Position numbers and translations under genes: made by a program. A stretch of DNA of 34,038 bases from Candidatus Melainabacteria bacterium. Its GTDB lineage: Bacteria; Cyanobacteriota; Vampirovibrionia; 2-02-FULL-35-15. The stretch covers positions 1 to 34,038 of the forward strand of contig JAHFBE010000026.1 in NCBI GenBank assembly GCA_023250205.1, in the 5' to 3' direction. This document shows, piece after piece, positions 5,478 to 24,907 of this stretch. The number at the start of each line of letters is the position of its first letter. Within the stretch, counting starts at the first letter, position 1. Below the pieces are notes generated by a model. It made no database searches. It was given only the letters and a program-made list of their open reading frames with translations, and was not told the origin of the DNA.

Positions 5478-6260
5478 ATGAAGCACAAACCACAAAATAT
5501 AAAAGAAGCCAGATTGAATAAAGCTATTGCTATGAGTGGGCTTGTTTCTAGGCGTAAAGCTGATGAATTAATAAGAACTGGAAGGGTTAAAGTAAATAAT
5601 AAAGTTATAGTTGACTTTAATACCAAGGTTTCATCTCTTGATAGGTTGGAGATTGATGGAAAACCATTAATAGCAAAACGTCACAATTATCTTTTGTTTT
5701 ATAAACCCCGTGATTGTATAACAACTATGAAAGATGAACTTGGAAGAAAAACAATTTACCAGTATTTGCCTAAAGAATTTTCACACCTGAAGCCAGTTGG
5801 AAGACTTGATAGAGATAGTGAAGGATTACTTTTATTAACGAATGATGGAGATTTTATAAATCGAGTCTTACATCCTAAGAATGATATAAAAAAAACATAT
5901 TCAGTGACTCTAGATATTTGGGTGGTTAGTAGTGAGGTTAATTTAATAATAAACAGATTGATTTCCGGGGTTTCTCTTGATGGGAGAAATGCAAGAGTTG
6001 ATTCTATAAAGCAAGTGATTCCAAACTATGCACAAAATGTGAAACAAACAATATTTGAAGTCGTCATTCATGAAGGTATTAATAGGCAAATTCGAAGAAT
6101 GTTTCAGGTTCTTGGATATTCTGTAAAAGGATTAAAAAGAACAAAGATTGGTTCATTTAGTATAAAAGATTTGTCCAGAGGGAAATTTAAGGAAATAGAT
6201 AAAAAAACTGCATATGCAATCTTCCAATCGGAAAACAAAAATAGATCTTCCACAAATTAA
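5478..6260 (+). CDS. 23S rRNA pseudouridine synthase, RluB/RsuA family
   Basis: Enzyme that converts a uridine in ribosomal RNA to pseudouridine. An S4 RNA-binding domain occupies about 11-60 (LNKAIAMSGLVSRRKADELI), followed by the catalytic domain. Catalytic D111 sits in GRLDRDSEGLLLL, and the family motif FYKPRD is at 74-79. The C-terminal block INRQIRRMFQVLGYSVKGLKR is also typical. The length (260) is close to RluB of many bacteria. RluB and RsuA cannot be separated with certainty from sequence alone, so I give no symbol. The last 47 bases overlap the next gene in another frame, suggesting cotranscription. Confidence 0.92.
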   Translation: MKHKPQNIKEARLNKAIAMSGLVSRRKADELIRTGRVKVNNKVIVDFNTKVSSLDRLEIDGKPLIAKRHNYLLFYKPRDCITTMKDELGRKTIYQYLPKEFSHLKPVGRLDRDSEGLLLLTNDGDFINRVLHPKNDIKKTYSVTLDIWVVSSEVNLIINRLISGVSLDGRNARVDSIKQVIPNYAQNVKQTIFEVVIHEGINRQIRRMFQVLGYSVKGLKRTKIGSFSIKDLSRGKFKEIDKKTAYAIFQSENKNRSSTN

Positions 6261-7056
6261 AAAAAAGCAAATACTAAAAAATGATGACAGAGAATCGGAT
6301 ACTTTTGATTTACTGTTTAAAGGTAATAAAAGAGAAGTTGATTTAATTGATTTGAGGAAAGGTAAAAGACATAAAGGCTATCGAAGGTACTTTGGAATAT
6401 TAGTTGTATTGCTTATACCAGCTTGTTTTTTTGTCGTTCAGATTGTTACTGGTGGTAATGAAATAGATCAATACAAAGCAATCACAGAAACCGTTACTAA
6501 TGAAGAGTCTAAGAATATTAAGACTGCTAATAATAGTGTGGTTGAAGATGATATACCAGATGTTCAATTTGCTTCCCCTTCTCCACCAAAAGCACAATTA
6601 CCAAGAAATGAAAACAAACAAGCCGTAGTTGTTAATAAAAAGCCTGAAACTCATAGAGCGATTGCTGTTGTGAAGGCTGCTCCAAAGCCTATTGTTATAC
6701 CAAACGTGAAAAATAAACTAACATATCATGTCATTCCGAGGAGCGAAGCGACGTGGGAATCTCCAAAACGTCAGGAGATTGCCACGCCTCACTTTGTTCG
6801 GCTCGCAATGACAGGAAGTGGTAGATTAATTTCCACAAATGGTATTAAACCAGTAAAAAAATCTGTTCCTGCAGTGGTTAATATTAGAAAAAACATTCCT
6901 GCAAAGAAAATTCAGGTAGCTAAAATAAATACTCAGGTTGTTAACTCTACAGCTAAAGTTAATCAGGCAATATCAGACATTATGTTAAGACCTCTATCGG
7001 TTGTATCAAATTCAGAGCAAAAGCATGGAGAATTAACTCTTAGGGGAGTGCATTAG
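6214..7056 (+). CDS. Single-pass membrane protein of unknown function with an inserted repeat
   Basis: I do not recognise this protein. It has a basic cytosolic N terminus (1-58), one membrane helix (about 60-79), and a Pro/Lys/Val-rich extracytoplasmic tail to residue 280, a layout like TonB- or SPOR-type anchored proteins but without a recognisable end domain. Residues 172-200 (with HVIPRSEATWESPKRQEI) are encoded by a GC-rich palindromic repeat and differ in composition from the rest. The start lies 47 bases inside rluB; no other good start is seen before the helix. It ends 8 bases before the converging polyprenyl synthase gene. Confidence 0.7.
   Translation: MQSSNRKTKIDLPQIKKKQILKNDDRESDTFDLLFKGNKREVDLIDLRKGKRHKGYRRYFGILVVLLIPACFFVVQIVTGGNEIDQYKAITETVTNEESKNIKTANNSVVEDDIPDVQFASPSPPKAQLPRNENKQAVVVNKKPETHRAIAVVKAAPKPIVIPNVKNKLTYHVIPRSEATWESPKRQEIATPHFVRLAMTGSGRLISTNGIKPVKKSVPAVVNIRKNIPAKKIQVAKINTQVVNSTAKVNQAISDIMLRPLSVVSNSEQKHGELTLRGVH
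6729..6813. repeat. Dispersed palindromic repeat inserted in frame in a gene
   Basis: An imperfect palindrome of about 85 bp. It starts TGTCATTCCGAG and ends CTCGCAATGACA, with inner arms GTGGGAATCTCC and GGAGATTGCCAC around a 9-base loop. It is clearly richer in G and C than its surroundings. The sequence type (GTCATTGCGAGGAGCGAAG and its mirror) is, as I recall, a dispersed repeat seen in many unrelated bacterial genomes. It stays open in the reading frame and adds about 28 residues to the 6214 protein. No transposase is nearby. Confidence 0.8.
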
Positions 7057-23062: not shown

Positions 23063-23455
23063 TTAATGTGCTCCAGCTAGTACAAACTTTGAATATTCAT
23101 CCGCAGGAATTAAATCTTTATTTGAATCCAGACTTCCGGCAAGTTCTACTTTAATCATCCAGCCTTTTCCGTAAGGATCTTGATTTACATACTCTGGATG
23201 GTCACTTAAATCCTTATTAATCTCAATAATTTTTCCTGAAATAGGGATAAACAAATCGGATACGGATTTAACAGATTCTATAACTCCAAATTTATCCCCT
23301 TCTTTAAAGCTTTTTCCTGTTTCTGGCATGTCTACAAATACAACATCTCCTAACTCACCACTGGCATAGGAAGTAATCCCTATATATGCATGATTACCCT
23401 GAATTTTTACGTATTCATGGGATTTTGAATATTTTAACTCTTTAGGGAAATCCAT
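23063..23455 (-). CDS. gcvH: Glycine cleavage system H protein
   Basis: Small carrier that swings an aminomethyl group between the P, T and L proteins in glycine cleavage. The lipoylated lysine is K63 in GVIESVKSVSDLF. Upstream features are DFPKELKYSKSHEYV and GDVVFVDMPETGK, and NQDPYGKGWMIKVEL follows. AGAGGA (23466-23461) lies five bases before the ATG. The P, T and L genes are not here, so GcvH may also serve as a lipoyl donor. A structured RNA candidate begins about 68 bases upstream on the other strand. Confidence 0.97.
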   Translation of the reverse strand: MDFPKELKYSKSHEYVKIQGNHAYIGITSYASGELGDVVFVDMPETGKSFKEGDKFGVIESVKSVSDLFIPISGKIIEINKDLSDHPEYVNQDPYGKGWMIKVELAGSLDSNKDLIPADEYSKFVLAGAH

Positions 23456-23510
23456 GTAAATCCTCTTTCTTTTAAATAATTTTAATCTAAAAAAGGCTTT
23501 TTAACCAGCC

Positions 23511-23516
23511 TATAAT
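23511..23516 (+). promoter_or_regulatory. Putative -10 of the 23.5 kb RNA
   Basis: TATAAT at 23511-23516 would start a transcript at about 23523, three bases before the first stem of the folded RNA. No strong -35 is seen. Confidence 0.5.
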
Positions 23517-23522
23517 TAAGTT

Positions 23523-23723
23523 TTGCCATGCTTACATTAAGCATGGAATGTAATTACCCTGAAATTATATTTCAAGCTTTGGGTAAATATAATCTGTCAA
23601 CTGGATTCAAGGTATGAATCGGTTAAGACAGTGTAGAAATTTAAAAGTGCATAATTGTCAAATTTTCATGTTAAACAAGTTTTTTCTTGAACAATAAGTT
23701 GTTCAGAGAAAGCTTGTTTTTTT
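23523..23723 (+). ncRNA. Candidate structured RNA (sRNA or leader) of unknown class
   Basis: About 200 bases with four local folds. Stem 1 pairs 23526-23534 with 23538-23546 (9 perfect pairs). Stem 2 closes with TTACCC (23554-23559) and GGGTAA (23581-23586) around an inner hairpin (23560-23565 with 23569-23574). Stem 3 pairs 23594-23608 with 23616-23631, with one bulged G and an AA bulge. Stem 4 is the terminator. It begins at a TATAAT, ends in a T run and lies before a 52-residue gene. It matches no RNA family I know; a 6S rod-like fold is not seen. It could be a riboswitch-like attenuator or an independent sRNA. Confidence 0.5.
23673..23723 (+). terminator. Long rho-independent terminator or attenuator
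   Basis: AAACAAG (23673-23679) pairs with CTTGTTT (23713-23719), and inner TGAACAA (23688-23694) pairs with TTGTTCA (23699-23705) around TAAG; partly paired bases join them. T run at 23717-23723. The end lies 18 bases before the AGGAG of the next gene, so read-through would be needed to transcribe it. Confidence 0.8.
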
Positions 23724-23751
23724 ATTTGGCAGATCTATGCAGGAGAAAAAA

Positions 23752-23910
23752 ATGTCTAAGAATAATGAAATTAAACATGGAAAAAAAGAAGAAAACTGGG
23801 TGGATGATTTAATAGTAAGACAACAGCATGATATAGAAGAAGAGGAAGAGATATTATCAAGCGTTCCTACTAGAATTAAACATAAATATTTAGAAGAGGA
23901 TGAAGAGTAA
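23752..23910 (+). CDS. Small acidic protein, 52 residues
   Basis: ATG at 23752 follows AGGAG (23741-23745) by six bases. It encodes MSKNNEIKHGKKEEN and a later EEEEE cluster and ends LEEDEE. The protein is highly charged, has no membrane helix, and resembles nothing I know. An in-frame ATG at 23737 lies before the AGGAG and is less likely. It lies directly after the RNA terminator and 100 bases before fliO, so it may be governed by either. The strong ribosome binding site is the main evidence that it is real. Confidence 0.55.
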   Translation: MSKNNEIKHGKKEENWVDDLIVRQQHDIEEEEEILSSVPTRIKHKYLEEDEE

Positions 23911-24010
23911 GATTTAATCAAATCTCTAAAATTTGACGATATTTTGTAAAATTACAAGTTTTAAGCATGTTTAAGGAACTTCTTTTGTTTGTAAACTTCT
24001 TTTTTTACGT

Positions 24011-24907
24011 ATGTATTATGTTGAATTTAAGAGAACAAAGCTTCTCATTGTTTCTGTAATTTTACTTTTTTCAATTTCAGCTTTTAGTTTTAGTGTAAAT
24101 GCTGAAGAAGAACTTGTTTTGCTACCTGATGAAGAACAAACGGTTAGTGATTATAGTGATGAAGAGCGCGTAGATGTTTTTAGTCCTAAAGTTAAAAAAA
24201 GAAGCAATATTGTCCGAAGGACAATAAGGACTAGAAGAAATCCTGCTATTCAGGATAAGGTATTTATCTCAGGTAATAATAGTCCGACTTTTAATGGATT
24301 ACTAACAACAGTTTTATTAGTGATATTTGCACTGTTTAGCTTTTTGGTTTTAACAAAGCTATTTTTGTCAAGAGATCAGTTTAATAAGCCGGGTAGTTTA
24401 CTTGATGAGTTGGCTCAAAAATTCACAGGTGGTTTTTCAAATTCTAATGGATTGAAACTTATACAAACATTGATTCTGACGCCAGGTCAAAGTCTCTATT
24501 TGATTGAAATTGATGGTAGAAGGATCTTAGTAGGAGGTACTCAACAAGGTGGCGTACAATTTGTCTCAGATTTGTCCCAGGGTCCACTGAATGCTGCCAA
24601 ATTGGATTTCAAACAAATTGAAGATTATAAAATTTCAACAAATAATTCAAAAGATATCGCTTCTATGAATGGAGTACATATTGGTGCTAGAGAGAATAGG
24701 TTATTTAAACAGGTAGAGGCAAATGCTAATCCATTTAATTCCGAAGAAGCTAACTTAGAAGAGAATCTACCTGATGAAATAAAACAAAATGTGGTTAATA
24801 ACAATTCAATTAGCAGGCAGACATTTAAGAGAAGAACAAACTTTAGAAAATCCTTGCTTAGTGAGCATGTAAATGGTGCTGAAGAACTATTGCGTAATAG
24901 GCAATAA
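24011..24907 (+). CDS. fliO: Flagellar export protein FliO-like
   Basis: Probable part of the flagellar type III export gate. A signal-like first helix (about 11-31, ending FSVNA) and a second helix (98-118) flank a charged segment, followed by a cytosolic domain with the FliO-type pattern LLTPGQSLYLIEIDGRRILVGG. The C-terminal 90 residues are extra and hydrophilic. FliO is poorly conserved, so the symbol is likely but not certain. No other flagellar gene is in the window. It converges on holB with no bases between the stops. TAAACT at 23992-23997 is a possible -10. Confidence 0.7.
   Translation: MYYVEFKRTKLLIVSVILLFSISAFSFSVNAEEELVLLPDEEQTVSDYSDEERVDVFSPKVKKRSNIVRRTIRTRRNPAIQDKVFISGNNSPTFNGLLTTVLLVIFALFSFLVLTKLFLSRDQFNKPGSLLDELAQKFTGGFSNSNGLKLIQTLILTPGQSLYLIEIDGRRILVGGTQQGGVQFVSDLSQGPLNAAKLDFKQIEDYKISTNNSKDIASMNGVHIGARENRLFKQVEANANPFNSEEANLEENLPDEIKQNVVNNNSISRQTFKRRTNFRKSLLSEHVNGAEELLRNRQ

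Follow-up and report, generated by a model that had tools for sequence, protein, structure and literature searches.

A probable structured leader RNA with a nested terminator upstream of a 52-residue ORF and fliO in one order of Melainabacteria

The analyzed window, i.e., the whole stretch of 34,038 nucleotides, is contig C56 of a 2.08-Mb genome of a Candidatus Melainabacteria bacterium. The RNA locus was placed between the divergent gcvH gene and an ORF of 52 amino acids, followed by fliO (Table 1). The FliO assignment scored 29.3 bits in Pfam against a cut-off of 22. The 52-residue ORF had no match in Pfam or NCBIfam. Homologs occur in 10 of the order's 11 genomes, and in G010 the start of the ORF is legible at the contig end. 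A search of 292 genomes from the rest of the phylum gave chance-like matches only, and a spread of this protein beyond the order was rejected. In the loci that were read, gcvH lay upstream on the opposite strand, and fliO was the next gene wherever the contig continued. FliP was found in 9/11 genomes. A terminator-like hairpin on the minus strand (23494-23511) was also seen directly upstream of gcvH.

Table 1. Positions of genes and RNA features around the leader locus, in window coordinates.
Feature	Position	Strand	Basis or remark
gcvH	23063..23455	-	divergent neighbour; Pfam GCV_H and NCBIfam gcvH
Promoter-like element: TTTTAACC, 4 nt, TATAAT (-10-like)	23499..23516	+	alignment pattern
Stem 1 (P1), 9 bp hairpin	23526..23546	+	minimum free energy (MFE) fold; window genome only
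Stem 2 (P2), bulged hairpin, base ACCC with GGGU	23549..23591 (about)	+	MFE fold
Near-invariant motif UUUGGGUAAAUAUA	23578..23591	+	alignments
Stem 3 (P3), CUGUCAACUG...CGGUUAAGACAG	23594..23631	+	MFE fold; covariation; own-versus-cross pairing
P4 5' strand, UGCAUAAUUGUCAAAU	23648..23663	+	pairs with 23724-23741
P5, terminator hairpin	23673..23719	+	-21.2 kcal/mol; 0/60 shuffles
Terminator U-tract, UUUUAUUU	23720..23727	+	sequence
P4 3' strand, AUUUGGCAG-AUC-UAUGCA, up to the Shine-Dalgarno	23724..23741	+	extended fold; own-versus-cross pairing
Shine-Dalgarno AGGAG of the 52-residue ORF	23741-23745	+	
52-residue acidic ORF (smORF)	23752..23910	+	homologs across the order
fliO-like gene	24011..24907	+	next gene, same direction as the 52-residue ORF; Pfam FliO

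The region 23523-23727 had a fold of -57.2 kcal/mol, whereas its shuffles averaged -35.4 (z -5.3), and none of 200 shuffles was as good. The four stems described in an earlier sequence-only reading were all present in this minimum-free-energy fold, and its proposed energy check was thus borne out. When the RNA was lengthened to 23745, i.e., through the Shine-Dalgarno, z rose to -6.4 because the two strands of P4 pair around the terminator. P4 is a long helix, overlooked in the earlier reading, that encloses the terminator hairpin P5. The stems of that reading were confirmed, but the structure extends past 23727, as the 3' strand of P4 runs to 23741. Only about 14 nt separate the U-tract from the Shine-Dalgarno in the window.

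The strand was judged from P4, which had a mean of -12.3 kcal/mol on the plus strand (p 0.0008) versus -7.4 on the minus strand (p 0.011), and several pairs of P3 and P4 are G-U on the plus strand. Judged from sequence, the RNA is read towards the 52-residue ORF. On the opposite strand the same region would be the 5' untranslated region of gcvH, and the fold of that strand likewise beats its shuffles (z -5.0), with the terminator-like site at 23511-23494 before gcvH. Such a gcvH leader is nevertheless extremely unlikely, since P4 pairs better on the plus strand, the G-U pairs of P3 and P4 would become A-C mismatches, and a glycine riboswitch was not matched in the Rfam searches.

Known families were searched in Rfam 15 (4227 families). 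The whole window gave 0 matches at the curated gathering cut-offs, and when the leader region was searched by E-value, all matches were sub-threshold and none was credible. A known Rfam family was thus rejected, in agreement with the earlier remark that the RNA matches no known class. Among titles and abstracts, together with one paper on FliO, no paper on the leader RNA was found. 6S RNA (RF00013) is likewise a structured bacterial RNA of about 200 nt, but it was rejected because the 6S candidates of the order are found at another locus. One such candidate, in genome G000 at contig C70:1278-1478 (L105), scored 44.6 bits against the Rfam cut-off of 46.4, and four other genomes of the order had a 6S candidate too. 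The C70 candidate is likely a divergent 6S RNA missed by the standard model.

Conservation was examined in the only 11 genomes available for one Melainabacteria order, i.e., non-photosynthetic relatives of cyanobacteria. The RNA locus was found in all 11, in the same place between gcvH and the 52-residue ORF, with one copy each. Two marks of a cis-regulatory leader RNA were seen, namely a constant place ahead of the same gene across the genomes and compensatory changes in helices. Eight sequences, G010 not among them, were used for a covariance model of 69 positions, and this model recovered the syntenic G010 copy with an E-value of 0.0018. In 240 genomes of the class, the model gave no other convincing locus. 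The best match beyond the order's own loci had an E-value of 6e-4, the others being weaker, and it was rejected as a copy, sitting in an unrelated gene.

The helices were compared by own-versus-cross pairing, i.e., by asking whether one half pairs better with its partner from the same genome than with a partner from another. P3 gave p 0.0002 (11 genomes), with both-sided changes in 7 of its 12 pairs, a number matched by 1 of 500 shuffles. P4 was also well supported, with an own mean of -12.3 kcal/mol against -9.2 for permuted partners in the 11 genomes. Its core, GYCARAAA/UUUURGRC, was paired in 86% of cells, with both-sided changes in 7/10 pairs; the register of this count was chosen by hand, and the permutation test is the fairer measure. 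P4 was weak in G002, G005, and G008. P2 had moderate support (p 0.011 in 11 genomes, 0.0024 in seven), and P1 was ruled out as a conserved element (p 0.58). The covariation check suggested earlier therefore speaks for P3 and P4. As for conservation of the stems in relatives, the expectation held strongly for P3, moderately for P2, and in 8/11 genomes for the terminator, but stem 1 proved specific to the window.

Upstream of the stems, TATAAT is found at 23511-23516. A pattern around it, YTWAAYM-N4-NATAAN with ungapped spacing, was present 66-111 nt before GGGTA in 10/11 genomes, against 0.17 expected by mononucleotide shuffling, an optimistic expectation because the pattern was loosened after the alignment had been seen. 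The RNA had been credited with its own -10. The TATAAT and an element common to 10 of the 11 genomes agree with this, but a simple sigma-70 scan gave no two-hexamer promoter there. The form TTTTAAC(C/T)-N4-(N)ATAAT is kept before the leader RNA. Genome-wide, the strict pattern outnumbers its reversed control only slightly. This order may have here an unusual promoter spacer element.

Beside P3, the near-invariant motif reads UUUGGGUAARUAUA in most genomes and is degraded to GGGUAAAAAG in G005, G006, and G007. It often ends in a TATAAT-like sequence, about 6 nt before P3. This would suit a reading in which the 14-mer and the promoter-like box act as DNA control sites and the hairpins are of secondary importance; 23588-23593, for example, would be the TATAxT box of a second promoter. 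However, G005, G006, and G007 keep GGGTAA and lose TATA, and the compensatory changes of P3 and P4 show that RNA pairing is under selection, so DNA sites are very unlikely to be the explanation. A repeated regulon site was also rejected. With one mismatch allowed, TTTGGGTARRTATA was about as frequent elsewhere in the order as the reversed-pattern control, and three of the exact matches that were read fell within long ORFs belonging to other genes. A possible short reading frame across the motif (...L-G-K-Y..., by eye) was rejected as well, having no usable start codon in G001 and G004 and being broken by upstream in-frame stops in G003, G004, and G007. In contrast to attenuators, the leader lacks a leader peptide whose start codon would be usable throughout the genomes. 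An alternative pairing of UUUGGG with the 5' strand of P4 was rejected, its own pairs being worse than cross pairs (p 0.97).

The terminator with its U-tract beat 60/60 shuffles of its region. A strong terminator was found in 8/11 genomes in the same place, 33-62 nt before the ATG, and this constant place suggests a limit to read-through and so an attenuating leader. No clear terminator was found in G005, G006, and G007, therefore attenuation is not universal. In G006 and G007, P4 was kept though the terminator was weak or absent.

The best-paired and most constant G-C columns of P4 (GYC with GRC/GGU) lie past the U-tract. The 3' strand of P4 takes in the U-tract and continues past it, so these pairs would be missing from a transcript that stopped at the terminator. 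Selection on P4 is therefore selection on the read-through RNA, i.e., the leader of the message of the 52-residue ORF. The short distance between the U-tract and the Shine-Dalgarno also leaves little room for another promoter. The suggested link to the small gene and perhaps fliO was accordingly strengthened, by synteny in 11/11 genomes and by the helix running past the U-tract.

The same evidence bears on a free trans-acting small RNA, about 200 nt long and bounded by a promoter and a terminator of its own, for which the small gene is a neighbour reached only by read-through. The conserved promoter-like element and the terminator, strong in most genomes, agree with it, and the near-invariant single-stranded motif could base-pair with targets. 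However, P4 and P3 are the two helices with the best support, and P4 is completed only by bases past the U-tract, so a cis-acting mRNA leader is favoured over a free RNA ending at 23723. The persistence of P4 in G006 and G007 argues against a purely free RNA, and the RNA always adjoins the same 52-residue ORF. The earlier proposal of a free transcript ending at about 23723 is consequently less likely, although its promoter-like and terminator sequences are conserved. We regard it as possible but unlikely.

The leader shares with terminator-type attenuators and riboswitches an intrinsic terminator shortly before the ribosome-binding site, but it differs from them in having no conserved antiterminator. 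Own-versus-cross comparison gave no conserved competing pairing with the 5' terminator arm (p 0.95-0.97) or the 3' arm (p 0.44-0.49), and a mutually exclusive antiterminator was thus not found. A classical terminator/antiterminator riboswitch is therefore unsupported. Of the terminator-type switch proposed earlier, the terminator stood in 8/11 genomes and the switching partner did not. A strict riboswitch, in which P2, the motif, and P3 bind a small molecule that switches the terminator, would fit the position before the ORF, the nested terminator, and the invariant junction nucleotides beside conserved helices. Besides the lacking antiterminator, it is opposed by the restriction to one locus per genome and one order, and by downstream genes that include no metabolic gene. 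Such a riboswitch is improbable. As neither an antiterminator nor a pairing of the motif with P4 is conserved, either a factor acting without a competing hairpin or a terminator setting a fixed ratio would be expected.

Taken together, the locus probably encodes a real, previously uncatalogued, order-specific structured leader RNA of roughly 220 bases, with a control role predicted from sequence comparison. The best explanation, to which we give a probability of roughly one half, is a structured 5' leader of the message of the 52-residue ORF and fliO, whose nested intrinsic terminator sets read-through. Transcription would start just after TATAAT. From genome comparison, the leader is predicted to fold into P2, the single-stranded motif, P3, and the long helix P4, with the terminator hairpin (P5 plus U-tract) at its tip. 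Part of the transcripts would halt at the terminator, and the remainder would read through, complete P4, and be translated. The leader would in this way set the amount of the small protein, and perhaps of FliO too. The motif next to P3 would be the most probable site at which a protein or ligand docks to tune read-through or message stability.

RNA-encoded antitermination elements, i.e., HK022 put and EAR, are structured RNAs beside a terminator to be read through. The leader resembles them by analogy of layout, and no sequence match is claimed. A bolder proposal is a new leader class, in which a conserved long-range helix carries the terminator at its tip and is complete only after read-through, and P3 with UUUGGGUAARUAUA is a sensor or antitermination element coupling the smORF-fliO unit to some signal. 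This is speculative and unlikely.

The read-through leader can also be compared with orphan cis-regulatory RNA motifs from comparative genomics (PMC2864571, PMC8040213). Those motifs are likewise intergenic, structured, covarying, and located upstream of the same gene, with no assigned ligand. Set against them, the present leader has an unusually narrow spread, i.e., one order and one locus, and a terminator hairpin nested in a conserved helix, with no Rfam match. It adds a comparatively supported structured RNA, absent from Rfam, to an uncultured lineage beside cyanobacteria. The leader goes with a 52-residue protein specific to the order and with FliO, which belongs to the flagellar export apparatus. 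It offers a concrete case in which a flagellar gene may be under RNA control, and it gives screens for a ligand or a protein partner a defined target.

Two further observations were made in the window. Between the 52-residue ORF and fliO, at 23973-24005, AGGAACTTCTT...ACTTCT lies just before the fliO start and is common to several relatives, the likeness being spotted by eye in L010, L011, L012, and L013. It is perhaps a second RNA or a ribosome-binding element. At 6690-6850, a repeat (HVIPRSEATWESPKRQEIATPHFVRLAMTG read in frame) was found inside the ORF at 6214-7056. The repeat had 48 matches across the source genome on both strands, so it seems that this coding gene has taken up a mobile palindromic-type repeat in frame.
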